A DNA stretch of 64,000 bases from an uncultured Clostridia bacterium (GTDB lineage: Bacteria > Bacillota > Clostridia > Oscillospirales > CAG-272): positions 1 to 64,000 of the forward strand of contig CANRIL010000007.1 of the NCBI GenBank assembly GCA_947630625.1, given 5' to 3'. Below are positions 1 to 10,435 of this stretch, one piece after another; within the stretch, counting starts at the first letter, position 1, and every line of letters starts with the position of its first letter. The notes under the pieces were generated by a model. That model made no database searches and was not told the DNA's origin. It worked only from the letters and a program-made list of their open reading frames with translations. The position numbers and the translations under genes were made by a program.

Positions 1-233
1 TTCTTAGCGTACGGGCTTAAAAGCGCCACTTATTTGTGCTTGACCAGATGATTCTAACACTGATTAAAATACTGTTTTCAACAAGAAGTGTATCTACGAC
101 TCCTCCTACCGTGCGTTGTAGTATCCCTTCTTCCCACATAGCAGTATACAACAAATTTGTTACTAAATCGCCGCTTTTCAGCACTCTTTCATCCCTATTT
201 GTGCTGACGCTTCGCGGCAGAATGGAGATTAAA

Positions 234-1166
234 ATGAAAAAAACAACAAGAATTCTTTCAGCCGTCCTTGTAATGATTGTTCTTACTATGACTGTATTCT
301 CGGTCAATGCACATGCTTTTGGTGGATATGCACATTGGGAAATAGCAAGAAGAGCAGTATCTGAGAACAACATTCCGACATCGAATAATTACGCTTATGC
401 TTACATGAGCGGAGCTTTACTTGCAGATATAGGTAAAAACTCGTGGGATAATAAGTATACTGTATCCGATTGTGCAGAATTCGCAAAAAAAATGATGGAA
501 ATAGATCCTCCGAATAATCAAGGTACATATTTCGCGCGAGGATGGTCTAGCCATGTATATCAAGACACACACGGAAGTGTATCTCAGATTCTTGATGATG
601 GTGATAGTTATAGAGTTAACTGTGGTCAAATAGACGAATACTTACGGGATACTCTTAAAAAAACTTGCCCCATAAATGGTACTGACAATCTATACGTTGT
701 CTACGATTTGATTAGAGATACATACGAAGCTCTTGATGGCTTTTCACCAAAGGACTCTGAGATTAACAGTGAAATAGAATCTATGTATTTCCTATATAAT
801 ATGCAGATCTTACTGAATTTCTCCGGTATGAGCACAGCGCAAATTCAGCGCATGAATGATCAGTTCGATGAATTAGCCAAAAATTGCTATAGCACTACAT
901 CGAATTTATTAATTGATCATTATTACAATGATAGTATAACTACAATGGATCTGATTCAAAGAGAACGTTCTAATTATGTTAAAGCTGATGCCCTCGCTAA
1001 AATTGAAGAGGCAGCTAAGGACTGCGCCCATCTTGAGACAATCAGTTATTCGGATGGTGTTGCTGAACTTCGATTTGTTATTGATGATCCAGAAACATAT
1101 TTTGCACTTGCAAAGCAACATGCAGAACTTATTATCGAAGGTACGGAATTCGATATTAGTTACTAA
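234..1166 (+). CDS. Secreted zinc-phospholipase C / P1-nuclease-like protein
   Basis: This 310-residue protein starts with a signal peptide (MKKTTRILS, a hydrophobic run, then VNAHAFGG). ATG 234 was chosen because GGAG at 224-227 lies 6 nt upstream; the frame is open further upstream without an RBS. After the signal peptide come AHWEIARRAV, then GALLADIG, then WSSHVYQDTHG. This order of His, Asp and H-x3-D-x-H resembles the metal-binding pattern of the zinc-dependent phospholipase C/S1-P1 nuclease superfamily. The rest looks helical. I infer an extracellular metal-dependent hydrolase; the substrate cannot be told. It opens the AT-rich island and is followed by a strong hairpin. Confidence 0.6.
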   Translation: MKKTTRILSAVLVMIVLTMTVFSVNAHAFGGYAHWEIARRAVSENNIPTSNNYAYAYMSGALLADIGKNSWDNKYTVSDCAEFAKKMMEIDPPNNQGTYFARGWSSHVYQDTHGSVSQILDDGDSYRVNCGQIDEYLRDTLKKTCPINGTDNLYVVYDLIRDTYEALDGFSPKDSEINSEIESMYFLYNMQILLNFSGMSTAQIQRMNDQFDELAKNCYSTTSNLLIDHYYNDSITTMDLIQRERSNYVKADALAKIEEAAKDCAHLETISYSDGVAELRFVIDDPETYFALAKQHAELIIEGTEFDISY

Positions 1167-1177
1167 TTATATGAAAC

Positions 1178-1210
1178 AATCAATAAGCCCTATAACCGGG
1201 CTTATTGATT
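1178..1210 (+). terminator. Hairpin after the phospholipase-like gene
   Basis: A perfect 13-bp stem (1178-1190 with 1198-1210) around the 7-nt loop TATAACC starts 12 nt after the stop codon at 1166. No clean T-run follows, so termination efficiency is uncertain. Confidence 0.6.
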
Positions 1211-1244
1211 ATTTATAAGTCGCTTCAAAGACTGATATGATTAA

Positions 1245-1631
1245 ATGGTGAGATATTTGAGATACATTAAAAGAATAATAATTACTACGATGCTAGTCGC
1301 CGTTATATTCCTTACTTGTAGCATTATATTCATTTATAGCAGGCCGATCGACTGGGATTCAGGTGCTTGTGCCGGCGGTTATGGTAATTATATTTTTGAA
1401 AAATATCAAGATGATCTTGTTCATAAACATGTACTTAGTCTAGATAATGTAGATGGCATAATTTCAGCCAAGCCAATCCAGGGTTCACAAAGTGTTAGTT
1501 GGGATGGAAAAACAATTTATCTTCAGTTCACCATTCATATTGAAAATAGGTACACTGGCATCACTGATTATACAATAAAATATATGGGTAAGCGAGTGTG
1601 GATTGATACTTATGAATGGGTAGAAACATAG
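1245..1631 (+). CDS. Small membrane-anchored protein of unknown function
   Basis: This 128-residue protein has one N-terminal membrane segment (about residues 9-31, IIITTMLVAVIFLTCSIIFI) after a basic start, then an outward-facing domain with YGNYIFEKYQDDLVHKH and a C-terminal stretch rich in Tyr, Thr and Trp. I recognise no family. No clear Shine-Dalgarno precedes ATG 1245, so the start is tentative. It sits between the phospholipase-like gene and the VanZ-like gene, 43 nt before the latter, and shares the low GC of the island. Confidence 0.6.
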   Translation: MVRYLRYIKRIIITTMLVAVIFLTCSIIFIYSRPIDWDSGACAGGYGNYIFEKYQDDLVHKHVLSLDNVDGIISAKPIQGSQSVSWDGKTIYLQFTIHIENRYTGITDYTIKYMGKRVWIDTYEWVET

Positions 1632-1674
1632 ATAAAGCCAATTTATCGGTAATCTATTCAATAGGAGACCAGCT

Positions 1675-2157
1675 ATGAATAAAAAACACATACTTCGATC
1701 AATGATAATAATCATTTTCTGTATATATTGTGTCTTGCTAGTGTATTTTTTGTTTCTAAACACGCGAGTTATACCTTACTCATCATATTGGGATCATATA
1801 AAAAGATCAATTAATTTGATACCGTTTAAAACTGTAACAGAATACATTACTCGTATATCTAATAATACGATCAACTTAACATCATTTATATACAACACCT
1901 TTGGTAATCTCTTTTTATTTATGCCAATGGGAAGTCTACTACCATGTGTCAATAGTAAGATTAATACCTTGTCACGTACATGTTTGATGGGCTTCTCTAT
2001 AATATTATGCGTAGAGGTGCTGCAATTGTTCTCTACGTTGGGAACATTTGATATTGACGATATAATACTCAATATGGTGGGATTAATACTCGGATATTCT
2101 GCGATTAGAATTAGACCGATCAATTATTTTCTCCAGAAATACAATATCATATATTAG
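1675..2157 (+). CDS. VanZ-like family membrane protein
   Basis: This 160-residue protein has about four membrane segments and the hallmarks of the VanZ-like family: NLIPFKT near residue 47, the NTFGNLFLFMPMG stretch near residue 75, and EVLQLF followed by FDIDDIILNMVG in the last third. VanZ itself confers low-level teicoplanin resistance, but most family members are uncharacterised envelope proteins. AGGAGA upstream of ATG 1675 gives a good start. Its place among secreted proteins and MacB-type transporters suggests an envelope-protection or export role, which is inference. Confidence 0.85.
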   Translation: MNKKHILRSMIIIIFCIYCVLLVYFLFLNTRVIPYSSYWDHIKRSINLIPFKTVTEYITRISNNTINLTSFIYNTFGNLFLFMPMGSLLPCVNSKINTLSRTCLMGFSIILCVEVLQLFSTLGTFDIDDIILNMVGLILGYSAIRIRPINYFLQKYNIIY

Positions 2158-2221
2158 ACCGAATCACTCTGATTAAACATGCATTTGTCAGTCTCCAATA
2201 AAAACAGGAGGTAAAATTAGA

Positions 2222-2728
2222 ATGTTAAAAAGAATAATAAGTATGGTGCTTGCGACCATGCTTCTTTGTACTGCACTCATCACCGGAGTAAGTGCTGCAG
2301 AATACGACCCTACTGAGGACTTCGAAGGTTATATCCGCTTCGTTGATAGCAATAAGAGAATTGCTTCCGACGGTACGTTTGAGTTCGAATTGAACTATAG
2401 CCTCACCTCGGGAAGATTCACGGCTAATGGCACTTCAATTACTATTGAAACCACCGCGCAGATATGCATGTGGGACGGAACCGGAAAAATCGTCGATGAT
2501 AACGATGAACAGTATACGGTAACTTTATATCATGAAGTGTGGATCTTTACTATGGAAGTTGGTAGCTATACTGGTACTTGTAATAATAAAACCAGCAGCA
2601 AGACTTTTACGAATTTGACGAAAGGTGATACATATTTCTTTAAAATTAACCCTGTAAATGCAAACTTAAGTATGACTGCCAAACATATTAAGGGTACGGG
2701 AATTGTGTCTGACGTTACAGTTAAGTAA
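2222..2728 (+). CDS. Secreted protein of unknown function
   Basis: This 168-residue protein carries a clear Sec signal peptide (MLKRIISMVLATMLLCTALITG, cleavage probably after SAA). The mature part is about 145 residues, rich in Thr, Asn and aromatics in alternating patterns that suggest a beta-sandwich; it has only two cysteines. AGGAGGT stands just upstream of ATG 2222. No known domain was recognised. A terminator follows at 2768-2794. It differs in sequence from the two secreted paralogues downstream but has the same size and design. Confidence 0.7.
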   Translation: MLKRIISMVLATMLLCTALITGVSAAEYDPTEDFEGYIRFVDSNKRIASDGTFEFELNYSLTSGRFTANGTSITIETTAQICMWDGTGKIVDDNDEQYTVTLYHEVWIFTMEVGSYTGTCNNKTSSKTFTNLTKGDTYFFKINPVNANLSMTAKHIKGTGIVSDVTVK

Positions 2729-2767
2729 CATAATTAGCTATGGAGATTGATATTTGCTTGTTTATAA

Positions 2768-2794
2768 AAGGAGCTGTGGAAAATACAGCTCCTT
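2768..2794 (+). terminator. Intrinsic terminator; start of a 332-nt gene-free stretch
   Basis: A 10-bp stem (2768-2777 with 2785-2794) around GGAAAAT follows the secreted-protein gene. The rest of the gap up to 3060 is AT-rich; I see no open gene or confident promoter there. Confidence 0.7.
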
Positions 2795-3060
2795 CTCTCA
2801 TAATATCGATAAGACTACTATTGTATAGGATGCAGATTTTATGGAGTTGAGCACAATAGCATGATACCGTTGAACAGTGGTGACTCTCAGCGCTGTGTTT
2901 CCGTCAACGAACAGTAATTTGCTTTTCTTCCGAATTTTTTTGCAACAATTGTAAAAAATATCTTTTTCTTTGTACCCTACACACCTGTTTTTGCATTAGA
3001 TATTATGAAGGTAATTCGCGAATTTTACACTTCATAACAACAATTTTCTGGAGGTTATTG

Positions 3061-3576
3061 ATGAAAAAACGAAAACGCATTTTGGCTTTGATTCTTTCAC
3101 TTGTAGCACTATTAAGCATGATGTGCATACCTGTTGGGGCGGTTAACACATCAGGTTACTACACATCACCTTCATGTGTTACAAATGAACTGACAGTAGG
3201 AGCAGCCTACTTCATAAAGAGTTCAAACTCTGTCTTGGATAATACCGATGTCGGTTTATATTTTTATCTTCTTAGCTCTGGTATGCCGACTGAGTTTGTA
3301 CAGGATACCAGTCGCCGATCTTATTTCTACCTCGATGAAGACGATGCTCCCGGGGAGCCATCGTTCGTGTGCAGCTACTACGGTACCTATTCATTTCGAA
3401 ACGGCGTTTATGGTACATGGAATCATACAAGGTTCGAGCAGGATAATCCGTTCATCATTGAAAACGATAATACAGCGGAGCTCATTTTCGAATTTAAGGT
3501 GCAACGCATATCCGGCGATAAGTCACTTACTATAGAGAAAGGGCTCGTGTATAAAGTGAAATTTTGGGCTCAGTAA
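3061..3576 (+). CDS. Secreted unknown protein, paralogue A
   Basis: This 171-residue secreted protein has a signal peptide (MKKRKRILALILSLVALLSMM, then VGAVN). ATG 3061 is preferred over TTG 3058 because GGAGG at 3050-3054 then lies 6 nt away. The mature part shares with the next gene the blocks SPSCVT, DVGLYFYLLSSGMP, GTYSF-NGVYGTWNH, F-IIE-DNTAEL and GDKS-T-E, ending in FWA. One unpaired Cys follows SPS. No family was recognised. The tandem paralogue, the secretion signal and the ABC exporter-like genes 1.5 kb downstream suggest a secreted effector or antimicrobial factor, which is unproven. Confidence 0.7.
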   Translation: MKKRKRILALILSLVALLSMMCIPVGAVNTSGYYTSPSCVTNELTVGAAYFIKSSNSVLDNTDVGLYFYLLSSGMPTEFVQDTSRRSYFYLDEDDAPGEPSFVCSYYGTYSFRNGVYGTWNHTRFEQDNPFIIENDNTAELIFEFKVQRISGDKSLTIEKGLVYKVKFWAQ

Positions 3577-3606
3577 TCAAGAATATTATTGAACAGGAGA
3601 ATGACT

Positions 3607-4137
3607 ATGAAAAAAAGAATAACTCAAATAATCTCAGCAGTTATTTTGCTCGCAATGATTGTCAGCTTGATGTGCATAACAGTCGGCGCCGTAACTGTTT
3701 ACCCCTCGTCTGGATACATATCGTCGCCTTCTTGCGTAACAGGTAAAATAACACATGGCGGGTCAGGCACAGTCAAGTGTCAGAACACAGCTATTGACGA
3801 TAGTGATGTCGGAATGTATTTCTATCTTCTAAGCAGCGGCATGCCTGATGATTTTGTAAAAGATGAATCTCGTAAATCATATTTTGATCTCTGTGAGATT
3901 GATCCGCCAAAAATGGATGGTGACTTTGTGGTTCGCTATATCGGCACATACTCTTTCTTAAATGGTGTATATGGCACTTGGAATCATTATAGAGTCGATA
4001 ATACAAAGCATTTCATCATTGAGGGAGACAATACTGCAGAGTTATACACTGAATTTATAGTAATGCCAGTAGTAGGCGATAAATCTATCACAGTGGAACC
4101 GAATTTAACATTCAAAATTCGTTTTTGGGCTGTTTAA
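3607..4137 (+). CDS. Secreted unknown protein, paralogue B
   Basis: This 176-residue protein is the tandem copy of the gene just upstream. ATG 3607 is favoured because GGAG at 3596-3599 lies 7 nt upstream; ATG 3601 would sit on the RBS. It has a signal peptide (MKKRITQIISAVILLAMIVSL, then VGAV) and the same mature blocks: SPSCVT, DVGMYFYLLSSGMP, GTYSFLNGVYGTWNHYR and GDNTAEL. Divergence is strongest after SPSCVT and in the CEIDPPKMDG loop, which holds an extra cysteine. The gene lies 30 nt after paralogue A and ends at a strong terminator, so the two probably form one unit. Confidence 0.7.
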   Translation: MKKRITQIISAVILLAMIVSLMCITVGAVTVYPSSGYISSPSCVTGKITHGGSGTVKCQNTAIDDSDVGMYFYLLSSGMPDDFVKDESRKSYFDLCEIDPPKMDGDFVVRYIGTYSFLNGVYGTWNHYRVDNTKHFIIEGDNTAELYTEFIVMPVVGDKSITVEPNLTFKIRFWAV

Positions 4138-4157
4138 TTTTCACAGATGCGTTTAAA

Positions 4158-4185
4158 TAGCCGCCGTTAACATGAACGGCGGCTA
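4158..4185 (+). terminator. Terminator after the secreted paralogue pair
   Basis: A perfect 11-bp GC-rich stem (4158-4168 with 4175-4185), loop AACATG, lies 20 nt after the stop of paralogue B. Confidence 0.7.
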
Positions 4186-4235
4186 ATACGCAATTAAGTA
4201 TCAAGATAAAATATGGAGTTAAAATAAATAATATT

Positions 4236-5132
4236 ATGAGCAAAAATTTAACAAAGAAAAAAAAGACCACCATTATAATAATATCATTTATAATACTTCT
4301 GTGCGCACTTACTTCTTTTCTTATATATATTTTTCTATATATTTTTCCATCAGATAACACCACTACTCAAGATAGTGAGTGGACATTCTCATATAAGGTT
4401 GCACGTGAAGTACAGTCAGATGGTTGGGTATATACATTTAAGTACTTCTATTTTAATGATGGAACACAATCTAATACTGTCCCTCCATACGCGTTCAATG
4501 TTATGAATCTTAGATATAGATATGGCGATGACACATATGAAACACCGATGCAAATATATGGTTTCGGCACTAATGAAGATATCGCACACGATATGCGTGA
4601 ATTAGATGATCTATTAGCTTATCATAGCTTGCCAGCTCCGTCGGTGGACGAGATGCTTAGTTTAAGCACAGATGATCTCGAATTCAAAAGTATAGACGAA
4701 AACTTGTTTATACGTTTGGTGCAGGAAGCCTTAACAGGAGAAGCGTGCGTCCCGGGAAACTACACTATTCCAGAATACGCGCTGTTAGCAGAGCCTGATT
4801 ATGAGGACGACTACTCAATTCAAATCGGATTTATGGCAGTTATGGGGAGAGTCGATGTAATGTTGATAGATGTTATATATCCGACTGGAACGGGTAAATA
4901 TGATTTTGTTCAGTTATCTGATATGGTTGAGAATAATACTGCAACAGACGAACAGAGAGAGTTGTATAGTGTATTGAATAACATTGCACAAGGCATTGTT
5001 GAAAGTGGCAACATGCAATATGGTTTTAATGAATTTGAAAATCAAGTAATTGCCGGGACTAAGATTGAGCGCCTTTATACATTTATCGATGATATAGTAA
5101 ATGGTAACTGGGCTAACTATAGTTTAGAATAA
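4236..5132 (+). CDS. Membrane-anchored extracytoplasmic protein of unknown function
   Basis: This 298-residue protein has a lysine-rich start (SKNLTKKKKT), one long membrane segment (about residues 12-37) and an extracytoplasmic acidic domain of about 260 residues rich in Asp, Glu, Tyr and Thr. No known family was recognised, and it lacks the lipoyl/hairpin features of MacA/HlyD adaptors. The RBS is poor (GGAG about 18 nt from the ATG). It stands 14 nt before the first ABC gene, so it probably belongs to the same operon and may be an accessory or substrate-binding part of the transporter; that is inference. Confidence 0.6.
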   Translation: MSKNLTKKKKTTIIIISFIILLCALTSFLIYIFLYIFPSDNTTTQDSEWTFSYKVAREVQSDGWVYTFKYFYFNDGTQSNTVPPYAFNVMNLRYRYGDDTYETPMQIYGFGTNEDIAHDMRELDDLLAYHSLPAPSVDEMLSLSTDDLEFKSIDENLFIRLVQEALTGEACVPGNYTIPEYALLAEPDYEDDYSIQIGFMAVMGRVDVMLIDVIYPTGTGKYDFVQLSDMVENNTATDEQRELYSVLNNIAQGIVESGNMQYGFNEFENQVIAGTKIERLYTFIDDIVNGNWANYSLE

Positions 5133-5146
5133 CTAAGAGGTATATT

Positions 5147-7126
5147 GTGATTATATGTCGCGAAATCATGAAATCATATGGTAACAACATTGTGCTTGAC
5201 AATTATTCGTATACATTCGCGGATACGGGTTTTTATCTTATATTCGGAGAAAGTGGTAGCGGTAAAACCACCTTACTAAATGTATTGTCTGGCATGATAC
5301 CATTCGATTCAGGATCGGTAGAAATAAACGGAACCTCATTATTTAACTTAGTTGATATCGATTCTAATGAATATAGCTTTGATTATATCACACAGGATTC
5401 TTTCTTTGTAGATTACCTTACTGTATACGATAATTTAAGGATAATATGCGATGACCATTCAAACATAATCGATACGCTTGAACAATTTGGCCTAGGCGGT
5501 AAGGAAAAACAATATCCGTCAACTCTTTCGGGCGGTGAGCGCCAAAGACTCTCAATAATACGATCTATTCTTTCAGCAAAGCATGTCTTGTTTTTAGATG
5601 AACCCACAGCAGCGCTTGACGAAGAAAATAAATTGAGGATTTTTGAACTCCTTTCCTTCATATCAAAATCATGCCTTGTAATATGTTCATCTCATGACAT
5701 AGAAGCAAAGATATACGCAGATAGCATAATAGAATTCTCGAAACACAAACGGGAAAACTCAACGACAGAACATAAATTTAATTCCTATACTAAAATAAAG
5801 CGTGCTAATACATGCCATCGACATGCATATGAACTGCGACCTTTTTTAAAAAAATGGTTTTCGTCACGAAAACGTAGCAAACACTCTGACATTTTGTTTA
5901 TACTCTTTATGACTCTCGCACTGTGTTTTCTTATGATTGCGGACACTCCGATGAGGAAGCTCGATGCAAATGCTGCTGAATTATATCGTATCAATATTTT
6001 AGAAATACGGACTAATAATGATAAGAAATCAGACTATGAGTATCTCAAAAGCCTTTCTGGAGTAAGAAACATTGTGCCATTGTATGGTTCAGTATTACCA
6101 AAACTAGTAGATGAGGAACAACTTGACCCCAATGATGGAGATATCGAACTCCCCCCGGTCGAGTATGAAATCGATGCTCTCTACACACTTCCCGGAGATG
6201 CGACATTATTTCCTTTCTCTGATCGTATTCAATACGGATCATATTACACAAGTGAGCACCAAATAATCATATCCGATGCATATGCAAGGTATTTATCGCC
6301 AGATTCCCCCGAATCCTTGATCGGACAAACTGTTACAAAAAATCTATATGGATTCGGTGATATTGATTTTATTATAGTAGGTATACTTGATCCTATTGAT
6401 GATTTTGAATATCAATATTTTCAGGTTGCGACTGGCGGAGTATCCAGCCTCACTGGGAGATATTCCGATGTTGATCCATACACAGCAGGAAAACATGATA
6501 ATGAATTCTATATTAATGGGGATATATTCACACGATACGAAGAAGATGAGTTTTTCAACAATGGTGGCAATCGAACATATTTGCTTTATTTTGAGGATTA
6601 TTATAGCATGAAAGCTTTTTGGCTTGAACACTGTGAAAGCATTGAAGGTAACGGATACTATGGGATGCCATTTTTTGAAAGTGATTTAGTTTTTCCATTA
6701 TTTCAGCTTCTCTCGTTTGTCCTTTTCCCTCTTGCAACACTAATCGTATTTATGACCATAATGTTATACTCGTATCTTGTACGAACAGAACTATTTTACA
6801 ACAACAAGTTCGTGTCTGTTTTCAACTATGCAGGTTATTCAATCGGGCAAATCATAAGTATACTCGCCATACTAATTATAGAACGTTTATTATTGTCTTT
6901 ATTTATCGCGGGTGTTATGTCTTTTACGATTACAATCTTTGTTAATACACTTAACAGGAGGTTTTTGTATGTGAATTTCGAGATATTCACATACAATATT
7001 CCGCTCATTGTTGTATCGTTAGTAGCAATCTGCATATCGTCAGTAATATCGGTGAACATTTTTTTGCGTCGTTTGAGATATAGAAGTTGGTATGAAAACT
7101 TAATCTCGAAGCGTGATCTCTTGTAA
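5147..7126 (+). CDS. MacB-type ABC transporter, fused ATPase and FtsX-like permease (subunit 1)
   Basis: This 659-residue protein starts at GTG 5147 with AGAGG 6 nt upstream. Residues 1-205 are an ABC ATPase with Walker A GESGSGKTT, signature LSGGERQRLS and Walker B VLFLDEPTAALD. After a basic linker come one membrane segment (about 250-265), a large extracytoplasmic domain to about 500, and three C-terminal membrane segments with the FtsX pattern. This is the MacB order and topology, which usually serves mechanotransmission or export of peptides and lipoproteins rather than uptake. The next gene has the same layout, so a heterodimer is likely. The substrate is unknown. Confidence 0.85.
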   Translation: MIICREIMKSYGNNIVLDNYSYTFADTGFYLIFGESGSGKTTLLNVLSGMIPFDSGSVEINGTSLFNLVDIDSNEYSFDYITQDSFFVDYLTVYDNLRIICDDHSNIIDTLEQFGLGGKEKQYPSTLSGGERQRLSIIRSILSAKHVLFLDEPTAALDEENKLRIFELLSFISKSCLVICSSHDIEAKIYADSIIEFSKHKRENSTTEHKFNSYTKIKRANTCHRHAYELRPFLKKWFSSRKRSKHSDILFILFMTLALCFLMIADTPMRKLDANAAELYRINILEIRTNNDKKSDYEYLKSLSGVRNIVPLYGSVLPKLVDEEQLDPNDGDIELPPVEYEIDALYTLPGDATLFPFSDRIQYGSYYTSEHQIIISDAYARYLSPDSPESLIGQTVTKNLYGFGDIDFIIVGILDPIDDFEYQYFQVATGGVSSLTGRYSDVDPYTAGKHDNEFYINGDIFTRYEEDEFFNNGGNRTYLLYFEDYYSMKAFWLEHCESIEGNGYYGMPFFESDLVFPLFQLLSFVLFPLATLIVFMTIMLYSYLVRTELFYNNKFVSVFNYAGYSIGQIISILAILIIERLLLSLFIAGVMSFTITIFVNTLNRRFLYVNFEIFTYNIPLIVVSLVAICISSVISVNIFLRRLRYRSWYENLISKRDLL

Positions 7127-7140
7127 TTATAACATATAAT

Positions 7141-9048
7141 ATGAATGAACTTATTCTTGAAAATGTATCAAAAATTTATGACCGTAATGTCATTAACAAT
7201 TTAACTTATACCTTTGAACCTGGGAAACTATATATAATAAAGGGCGTAAGTGGTTGCGGAAAGAGCACATTGTTTAATATCATTGGCGGAATCGAATGTG
7301 ACTTTGATGGGAATGTGATTTTCAATGGTTGTGACAGTAACAAAGGAAAGACAGTGTATCGGAAAAACATCGGTTACATATATCAAAACAGTCTGTTGTT
7401 ATCTGGAGTAACGATAATAGAAAACTTATTGTTTATAAATAATGATCGTGAAACAGTAGAAGATCTTGCTAAGGCGCTTGATATATATGATCTACTTGAG
7501 AGGTTACCAGATGAGTTGTCTGGCGGAGAGCGACAAAGAGTAGCCATTTTGCGTAGTTTGCTCAATAATCCTCAAATCCTCCTCGCGGATGAACCAACTG
7601 CATCGCTAGACGCAAGTAATTCGATGCATATTGCTAAGCTAATTGCATCTCAAAAGAAGAACAATCGTATCATACTTGTCGCAACACATGAACATTGTTT
7701 CGATTGTTTTGCAGACGAGATTCTGTATCTTGAGTATGGCGAGATTAAGAAGGTTGAAAAAAACAAAAATATCTCCGATCAGACTAGTGCAAGTCAAAGT
7801 CGAGTATTTTCAAATTCAACGATAAAGTCTCACAAAAAGAAGAAAAACATAAATCTACTTTCTTTTGCAGTTAAACGCCATAGAGGTGAATATAGTCTCA
7901 GTAGACTACTTCCTTTTTCACTTATTGTACTACTAATATTGATTATCTCAACTGTTCAAAATAGCTTTGAAATTGAGTACATGCATTATGCCGCGTCAAA
8001 AAGCAATTCTGATTTAGTATCTGCTACAGAAACACAGATTTCGTTACTTGAAGAGACATACCGTGAACACATACGTTTATATTATCCCTACTATGCTGAA
8101 GAGAACGGAACAATTGCTTGCTATCTTGCTGATAAGAAAGATAGCATATTCGCGCTTGAAGGAATGTTAATATTCGGCGAGTTTCCGAAAGAAAAAAACG
8201 AAATATTAATTAGTTTTGAATACGCAGAAGATAATAATTATTCATCTGATATCATAGGAAAGGAAATCACATTCTTGAATCATCAATTTGTCGTCGCCGG
8301 AGTTACATATTCATATGATACTCCTGCTGCTGGACGCAATGCCGATTTTCAAACACTCTATCGTGGAGACTATTATTATCGCCAATATCATGATATTGAT
8401 AGTAGGGCAAACGAGATATATGTATTTCACGACGTTCTCTCCGAATTTGGAGAAATATATCACGGCAGCGGAGCATATAGTGAGTTACTACAGTTTTCAT
8501 ACCCAAATCTGTTCAGTGATATGAAAGCAGTTCAATATTTTCGTGAGTGGATCAATTCTGATAGGGCTAAAATATTAGACTCTGTGTCTGGTGAAAAACT
8601 CGACATTCCGCCTGCAACTCTTAATTATTTCGATTATGCCGCACTATCAATCCAGGAAACAGTTGACAATGTGACAATTGTATTGTTAGCGCTTTTTTTC
8701 ATCTGCTTTTTTATTTTCTGTATTTTCTTGCGTATGAACATTGACATCGAGCTATTTTATCGCAGACGTGAAATCGGATTCCTTAGAATATTTGGTGTCA
8801 ACCATATAACGATATCGAAGCTAATCATATACGAATATGCAAGTAGACTAGCTATGTCATGTTTTGGAGCACTTATCATATATGCCGTCGTTGCAGGTAT
8901 ATATATTACTCTATCCGGGCATATCGTCTGGTTTAATGTTCTTCACGTAATAATAGCTCTCGCAGGTGCGTTATTATTTTATTTTATTACTATCATAGTG
9001 TCTATAATCACCATTATGAGAAAAAAGATTATCGACCTAGTAATATAA
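7141..9048 (+). CDS. MacB-type ABC transporter, fused ATPase and FtsX-like permease (subunit 2)
   Basis: This 635-residue partner follows subunit 1 by 14 nt. It has Walker A GVSGCGKSTL, signature LSGGERQRVA and Walker B ILLADEPTASLD in residues 1-205, a membrane segment at about 258-275, an extracytoplasmic domain and three C-terminal membrane segments. Both ATP sites look complete, so neither subunit is an obvious dead partner. No good RBS is visible, which fits translational coupling. Together with the membrane-anchored gene at 4236 it would form an envelope ABC complex of the MacB/FtsX class. Similar pairs in Firmicutes accompany antimicrobial peptide export or resistance; here that is inference. 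Confidence 0.85.
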   Translation: MNELILENVSKIYDRNVINNLTYTFEPGKLYIIKGVSGCGKSTLFNIIGGIECDFDGNVIFNGCDSNKGKTVYRKNIGYIYQNSLLLSGVTIIENLLFINNDRETVEDLAKALDIYDLLERLPDELSGGERQRVAILRSLLNNPQILLADEPTASLDASNSMHIAKLIASQKKNNRIILVATHEHCFDCFADEILYLEYGEIKKVEKNKNISDQTSASQSRVFSNSTIKSHKKKKNINLLSFAVKRHRGEYSLSRLLPFSLIVLLILIISTVQNSFEIEYMHYAASKSNSDLVSATETQISLLEETYREHIRLYYPYYAEENGTIACYLADKKDSIFALEGMLIFGEFPKEKNEILISFEYAEDNNYSSDIIGKEITFLNHQFVVAGVTYSYDTPAAGRNADFQTLYRGDYYYRQYHDIDSRANEIYVFHDVLSEFGEIYHGSGAYSELLQFSYPNLFSDMKAVQYFREWINSDRAKILDSVSGEKLDIPPATLNYFDYAALSIQETVDNVTIVLLALFFICFFIFCIFLRMNIDIELFYRRREIGFLRIFGVNHITISKLIIYEYASRLAMSCFGALIIYAVVAGIYITLSGHIVWFNVLHVIIALAGALLFYFITIIVSIITIMRKKIIDLVI

Positions 9049-9125
9049 TTGTTGAATAACTCACTTTTCTTCGAATCAGTAGATATGACCATTCAGGTAC
9101 AAAATATTTAGCCGGATAATATCAG

Positions 9126-9176
9126 ACAACACCTTACACCAAGTAGACATACAATCCATGCGGCGGAAGGTGTTGT
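9126..9176 (+). terminator. Long-loop hairpin after the ABC genes; 309-nt gap
   Basis: A 10-bp stem (9126-9135 with 9167-9176), a 31-nt loop and a following TTTTA could terminate the island operon. I see no gene between 9049 and 9357. Confidence 0.5.
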
Positions 9177-9357
9177 TTTATATTCGATCATGCGCAACAT
9201 TTAATAGTTTGTGTCTCTCATTTTGTCGCCATTATTCTACATAATGAGTAGTAGTGTCACATTCTCTAAATCTGATACTACTAATTCTATATTATAATGT
9301 GATAGAGAAAGCCGAAACATTATATTAAGACAGAATTCTTTACCTCGGAAACACACT

Positions 9358-9423
9358 ATCGAGTAGGGGGAAATAAATCCCCCTCTCACACCACCGTACA
9401 TGCCGTTCGGCATACGGCGGTTC
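9358..9423 (-). mobile_element. Group II intron 3' end fragment (domains V-VI), minus strand
   Basis: Read on the minus strand, this segment begins GAACCGCCGTATGCCGAACG, continues as a domain-V-like hairpin and then GTGTGAGAG with a domain-VI-like stem and CTACTCGAT. Its domain V differs by one base from that of the plus-strand intron at 9989-10020, but its domain VI stem is different. It is therefore the 3' end of a second, oppositely oriented intron whose remainder is missing. It lies at the GC transition. Confidence 0.7.
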
Positions 9424-9438
9424 AATTCAAAATTAAAT

Positions 9439-10053
9439 ATGCGCTACTTTCAAGTAGTAATCGGAAATGCTGACTAAGCCACGCTTGGTCAGTATTTCTT
9501 GTATGACGGGCATGCCGTCGGTCTGTGGTGAAAGTCCACAAGGGGCGTAGTTGCCGACGAACCCCAGAGCGACTCCCAAGGTTTGCTCCGTGAGGAGCAG
9601 GCGAGAAGAAAGGATAGCGAAATCGTAGCCTTACGAACAGGAACCTGATACAAAGGCGAATACGGCGGATAAGTGGGCAAGAGGTCATGAAGTCCAAAAG
9701 GCAACCGTAACCCGTATGCGTAAATCAGGAAGGTAGACGAGGAAAGACCGGGGACTTATCCCGTGAGGTCTCACGAACGGAGGAATCCGCAGTAACAACG
9801 AATCGTGAGAAGTCAGCAGAAGCCATAGTACCGAGGAATCGGGAAGGGCTGAACGGTTCAACTTATCGTTAAAAAGATGTAATGCATATGTCCGATATGA
9901 GGAGTAGCCGAAACGTATATGAGGCAAAACAAAGGAAGCCTTAGGGAAGAAATGCAAAAGCGTTGAAGAAGACGAGGAGAAGAACCGAACCGCCGTATGC
10001 CGAACGGCACGTACGGTGGTGTGAGAGGGCGGAGCAATTCCGCCCTACTCGAT
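9439..10053 (+). mobile_element. Group II intron relic without a reverse-transcriptase ORF
   Basis: The segment has the look of a bacterial group II intron ribozyme: a GCGC-containing 5' end near 9439 (an A where the first G is expected), domain I blocks such as GTCTGTGGTGAAAGTCC and GGGGCGTAGTTGCCGACGAA, a domain V hairpin at 9989-10020 (ACCGCCGTATGCCGAACGGC onward), and a domain VI stem (10027-10033 with 10039-10045) with a candidate branch A at 10047 and end near 10053. The maturase/RT gene that normally occupies domain IV is absent; only about 120 nt remain there. Mobility would need a maturase supplied from elsewhere. Confidence 0.75.
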
Positions 10054-10435
10054 TTTTCTTTCCGCATCATAATTATATACACAAACGCCGCCGTTTGACA
10101 GAGCCGCCAGTCGGGCGCTTGCCGCGGTTTCCGTTCGGCGAAATAATGCCGCGTGGCTTTAATGCGGATATCACGCGCCCTCTGCCGCGAAACGACCACA
10201 GCCGAAAAAGCTGCGGCGCATCTTTTGCCTTGGGCGCATGCTTTGTCAATTTAGGCCGTGAAGAGACGCAACAAAAGCACCGCACTATTCAGTATACCAT
10301 AAAAACCGCGCGAGTGCACACTTTGCCGCTCAATTTTTTGCCATAAAAACATAAAATTTTGCGCGCGCGTGCGCTCGCAGCCGCGAACGCGTTCGAAAAT
10401 CGTCATGTCGCGGCAGCGTTTTGACGTGATGGAGC
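10054..10435. other. Gene-free stretch between the intron relic and the repeat tract
   Basis: No credible gene is visible. GC rises to the genome level here, and several short open frames lack an RBS and family resemblance. The stretch may hold decayed coding sequence. Confidence 0.4.

Follow-up and report, generated by a model that had tools for sequence, protein, structure and literature searches.

A putative antisense terminator in the RT gene of class C group II introns, and an intron apparently nested head to head behind it

Our analysis suggests that two class C group II introns meet head to head in the window, by which we mean the whole stretch analysed (the first 64 kb of contig C7, from a draft genome of 2.49 Mb in 63 contigs). 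With a probability of roughly three in four, an intron on the plus strand inserted 3′ of a hairpin that lies antisense to the end of an RT gene in a minus-strand intron, this hairpin is a terminator under selection, and the right half of the present join stems from a second copy of the plus-strand intron. Beyond the window, a comparison of RT genes makes it quite probable that class C introns often encode an antisense terminator in the 3′ end of the RT gene. This element would have evolved at several positions of the protein and would insulate the intron against transcription from its 3′ side; the creation of targets for reverse nested insertion would be a side effect.

Two group II introns were detected by Rfam/Infernal searches, which located domain V-VI at 9358-9422 on the minus strand (RF00029, 45.3 bits) and at 9988-10053 on the plus strand (RF00029, 45.9 bits), both above the gathering score of 40. 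The plus intron also yielded parts of D1-D4 at 9584-9749 (111.6 bits) and 9788-9849 (50.3 bits) and in all matches RF02001, RF01998 and RF00029; the minus copy, being truncated, matches RF00029 only. A sequence-only reading of the same DNA had proposed this search and had described two oppositely oriented group II intron relics. The orientations and the minus-strand relic were borne out; for the plus-strand intron, whose ends and core are present, the word relic was not borne out. That reading had also noted that the domain V hairpins are one base apart and the domain VI hairpins unlike, which was seen again in both copies, and had taken the two for relatives rather than one duplication. We agree. 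A single twisted copy, which it had raised together with a failure of the covariance models, was rejected on the two domain V-VI occurrences, the RT codons and the lack of a minus-strand remainder at the right: a search right of 10053 for the rest of the minus intron found none.

As a reference we used an intact intron of 1846 nt (locus L059, 1217-3062) from an order-level relative, G032, which encodes an RT/maturase of 465 aa with PF00078, PF08388 and TIGR04416. The minus relic, the 3′ remnant of an RT-bearing class C intron, matches this intron at 89.5% over 143 nt (9358-9500, minus strand), and its 3′ end is at 9358. It carries the last 21 RT codons at 9498-9436 (minus strand, reading EILTKRGLVSISDYYLKVAHI), followed in frame by the stop codon at 9435-9433, just before domain V. 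Because 9358-9500 aligns with the 3′ end of the reference and carries the RT frame, the minus relic includes these 21 codons and reaches 9500. It had earlier been drawn as a fragment of 9358-9423 separated from the plus intron by 15 nt; the plus intron in fact starts at 9501, directly after the relic, with zero gap at 9500/9501.

The plus intron itself (9501-10053, 553 nt) is a complete, ORF-less class C intron, judging by its Rfam matches and by its end-to-end alignment with the reference intron minus the RT gene. Its 5′ end is GTATGACGGG at 9501 and its 3′ end CTACTCGAT at 10053; both ends and the Rfam core parts are present, and what is missing relative to the reference is the RT gene in domain IV, an absence that the sequence-only reading had already recognised. 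A candidate EBS1, AAGAAA at 9606-9611, is complementary to a putative IBS1, TTTCTT, at 9495-9500. ORF-less group II introns are mobilised in trans. The window intron resembles such elements in keeping its ribozyme core while the RT gene is absent; its RT-bearing relatives in this genome are contig-end fragments, and its own mobilisation in trans is a presumption. A complete RT-bearing copy, which had been suggested as something to look for, was not assembled in this genome: only fragments were found, on C15, C20 and C44, and the intact relative is that of G032. The genome also has an RT of 351 aa on contig C34 (L033, 1294-2349; RVT_1, 34.9 bits), which by its weak match to the group II RT is not of the group II type.

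By these and the following features, both window introns are assigned to class C (IIC). The catalytic triad in domain V reads CGC in the window and in the class C set (CGCCGTAT) and AGC in several controls (AGCCGTATG); CGC replacing AGC is a mark of class C. The reference RT has RVT_1 and GIIM only and no endonuclease domain, a point that was examined in this intact relative. Insertion right after an intrinsic terminator was found at 7/7 of the 5′ ends examined in this genome and G032 (window, C29, C44, C53, C56, C15 and G032): each is preceded by a hairpin whose folding energy lies between -16.4 and -25.0 kcal/mol and which has a T-rich tail, and at random positions in the same sequences 7/1050 reach -10 kcal/mol. 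Intrinsic terminators are the known target of class C introns (Robart et al. 2007, as cited in PMC4424553 and PMC8919778).

At the window junction, the terminator-like structure (9467-9500, plus strand) consists of a hairpin at 9467-9495 with -17.0 kcal/mol and a T-rich tail, TTCTT, at 9496-9500, after which the intron begins. It thus has the stable hairpin followed by a T-tract that is expected of an intrinsic terminator, and the hairpin lies antisense to the RT C-terminus in the minus relic. The plus intron thus sits nested, head to head, on the antisense strand of the minus intron, right behind a terminator-like hairpin. The pair agrees with class C introns as described in the consulted parts of PMC4424553 and PMC8919778 in its terminator target, small ribozyme, domain V CGC and RT type without an endonuclease domain, and differs in having its target within a second class C intron, on the antisense strand of the latter; those parts do not speak of an antisense terminator inside an intron. 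Similarly, it shares with the bacterial and archaeal twintrons treated in PMC4424553 that one group II intron sits in another, here with the far half of the outer intron absent. The two differ in orientation, however: the window introns are on opposite strands, so that the inner one cannot be removed from the outer's transcript by sequential splicing in a shared direction. The nested insertion is a single case. Among the other fetched loci, a check for nested insertion at antisense RT ends gave none that was convincing and one chance motif (L026).

The sequence to the right of the plus intron points to a second insertion. The right flank (10054-10330, plus strand) resembles what lies beyond the spoVG terminator in two sister species, G004 and G005. 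BLAST aligned 34 nt with G005 at 91% (10287-10320, E 4.5e-6), and a local alignment of the flank with this species scored 136, whereas 300 mononucleotide shuffles reached at most 119.5. With up to three mismatches allowed, the 19-mer ATTCAGTATACCATAAAAA still has a single occurrence in the window (0.02 expected), and 12/229 fetched loci contain it, these being overlapping copies of the window site or spoVG loci of G004/G005. In the genome under study, the last gene of contig C29, which we take from its sequence to be spoVG, is followed by a terminator, by ATTTCTT and then by the opening 70 nt of this plus intron, and the end of C29 is identical to window 9494-9570 over exactly 77 nt. Since the right flank belongs downstream of spoVG, yet spoVG ends C29 beside the same intron, the join appears chimeric: the left half of an insertion in the minus intron is combined with the right half of an insertion after spoVG. 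The sequence-only reading had rightly suspected insertion or rearrangement here and had noted the change in GC, which is ~0.36 over 1-9000 and 0.49-0.63 over 10-15 kb. Its proposal that the introns mark the edge of an island should not be read as biology, because the two insertions that meet here, both of one intron, may have been joined by recombination or, quite possibly, through an error in the draft assembly.

How the two halves came together bears on how much of the join is real. That contig ends overlap by 77 nt hints at an assembly graph with k=77 that broke at introns, which makes a misjoin at least as likely as recombination. We would give about even odds to the head-to-head join being an artefact, in which a short-read assembler crossed the repeated 553-nt intron and swapped its flanks, possibly for those of another organism. 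The exact 77-nt identity at the end of C29 and the spoVG context of the right flank in the sister species fit this well. Several further contigs also end within introns: the other 5′ ends in this genome (C29, C44, C53, C56) and the other 3′ ends (C44, C48, C52) are at or near contig ends. The sharp change in GC agrees with it too, and so does the GC of related ABC pairs of the genus, which is 0.49-0.57. On the other hand, the contig is unbroken at the 3′ end of the plus intron, the bin contains no second exit from this plus intron, and the join might have paired-end support. Even under misassembly the nested left junction between relic and plus intron may be real, as it is not internal to the repeat.

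A genuine recombination between two plus-intron copies, one in the minus intron and one after spoVG, is possible but somewhat doubtful as the event by which the low-GC segment came to adjoin the region downstream of spoVG. The copies at both sites are identical over the comparable 77 nt, and the spoVG context of the right flank speaks for recombination as it does for any chimera; yet repeat misassembly yields the same pattern, and the reciprocal product was not seen. It is unlikely that the minus relic was cut short at the hairpin by 5′-truncated retrohoming, before or without the plus intron landing, so that their meeting point would be partly coincidence: other 3′-only pieces do exist in this genome, on C15 directly after a terminator and on C52 beginning near the hairpin, but the relic ends exactly at the plus-intron junction, after the T-tract, as insertion predicts, and the right flank belongs to spoVG.

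Intron remnants elsewhere in this genome, on C15 and C20, were also inspected. The C15 relic (L024, 3216-3507) has an internal deletion: its 5′ end is intact and follows a terminator, and after it come a frameshifted piece of the RT, in which YADD is present, and domain V. The same contig holds a solo domain V-VI (L024, ~5740-5830) directly after a terminator, as a 5′-truncated retrohoming product would be. On C52, the 3′-only piece (L030, ~4033-4165) begins ~10 nt upstream of the antisense hairpin and may be a 5′-truncated copy or reflect a breakpoint at this hairpin.

We surveyed antisense hairpins in RT genes. These were gathered from 25 of the 26 loci of one set, 50 loci from further searches and four others, with 20 RTs of other intron classes as controls; after copies, relics and loci without the C-terminus were dropped, 70 class-C-like and 20 control genes remained. 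A gene was scored positive if an antisense hairpin of -10 kcal/mol or lower lay in its last 120 nt (+12) and was followed by 8 nt of which 5 or more were T. By this measure, 38/70 class-C-like genes were positive, against 0.9/70 expected when codons were resampled synonymously according to the usage of each gene. The sense strand gave 1/70, windows elsewhere in the same ORFs gave 6/895 antisense and 3/895 sense, and the controls gave 1/20. The set contains near relatives; when clustered at 70% identity, 17/30 clusters were mostly positive. In the alignment, the hairpins are centred on columns 114, 127-128, 131, 132, 138 and 141, that is, over different codons, so the antisense hairpin seems to have arisen or shifted several times.

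The feature is not universal, as 32/70 genes lack it by the set criterion. Widening the search to 330 nt and 4 T gave such a hairpin to 5/32 of these, and one sub-group (L108-L110, L116, L117, L120, L156, L158) has none even then. Among six plasmid introns, the one from S. agalactiae is positive at -21.4; two beside resistance-gene cassettes and three others are negative. A model in which the antisense terminator replaces that of a convergent neighbour was set aside for want of enrichment, the downstream gene being convergent at 17/38 positive and 10/28 negative loci. A generic terminator scan of L059, L223 and the window did not list the antisense site, in our opinion because the scan extends the stem through A/T flanks. 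A search of viral contigs gave no relative of the RT, and one of phages a single short match.

The imperfect pairs bear on which strand folds; they were counted under a scoring that treats G.U and A.C alike. Across 35 distinct antisense hairpins, 32 such pairs are G.U and 3 A.C on the antisense RNA, a bias that folding of this RNA would lead one to expect; 26 target hairpins in front of introns have 22 and 3. Resampled genes gave G.U:A.C of 98:62 (23:14 at the same threshold) and windows elsewhere 40:44; Fisher p for 32:3 is 3e-4, 5e-3 and 4e-6 against these in turn, with related genes treated as independent. The tail holds 5.44 T of 8 where 4.70 are expected from the codons, with 35/39 above expectation and 3 below. 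The G.U bias and the T excess both suggest that it is the antisense RNA on which selection acts. Covariation in one group gave 10 double-change cells versus 3.3, above all 500 shuffles; in a second group it was not above chance. We infer that selection maintains this structure at the 3′ end of the RT gene as an antisense intrinsic terminator. A function in the sense RNA, as part of domain IV or in control of the RT mRNA, with a T-tract that merely mirrors lysine codons, would suit a DNA hairpin that folds on both strands and a T-tract that overlaps conserved K/E codons; we consider it improbable, given the 32:3 ratio on the antisense RNA and a T-tail beyond codon prediction.

If the antisense terminator is what we propose, it would stop transcription entering the intron from its 3′ side, and the intron would be doubly insulated, with the host's terminator ahead of it and a reverse terminator of its own close to its end. 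As class C introns target terminators, the antisense hairpin would make an intron a landing site for one in reverse orientation. In the window, the ORF-less intron may have been moved there by an RT supplied in trans, and the right half of the join would come from a second plus-intron copy downstream of spoVG, either because intron copies recombined or because the draft was misjoined. Neither class C introns nor their insertion at terminators nor nested introns are new; in the open-access literature, as far as its consulted parts go, no mention was found of an antisense terminator in class C introns or of head-to-head nesting there. Among bacterial retroelements, class C introns are widespread, and they are related to RTs in laboratory use. 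A dual-coding antisense terminator in a protein gene would, if true, be a new functional part of them. It would also explain how an element between genes avoids antisense RNA, and it implies that nested introns and intron-mediated rearrangements can arise by this route again and again.

The S. agalactiae intron is on plasmid pGB2002 (NC_015971) and is presumably of the GBSi1 type. Its RT is 66% identical to that of L059, it follows a hairpin, and its antisense hairpin of -21.4 with a T-tract is like that of the window, from which it differs in not being nested. The class C-attC introns of integrons are relatives within class C (PMC4424553). The two introns beside resistance-gene cassettes (L225, L226), taken as attC type, are without the antisense hairpin.

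The low-GC left flank (1-9357, GC ~0.36), of doubtful origin and doubtful linkage to the right flank, carries an ABC transporter pair. When 5147-9357 was compared with 394 genomes of the order, with two candidates scored per genome, no close DNA match was found outside this genome. The low-GC part at 1675-9048 encodes a VanZ-like protein, small secreted proteins and two fused ABC-permease proteins, whose best NCBIfam match is a lactococcin 972-type exporter model, below cut-off. A diverged ABC-permease pair of normal GC is located on contig C14. Behind the ABC operon, a long-loop inverted repeat with a T-run, seen by eye at 9127-9185, is perhaps the operon's own terminator.
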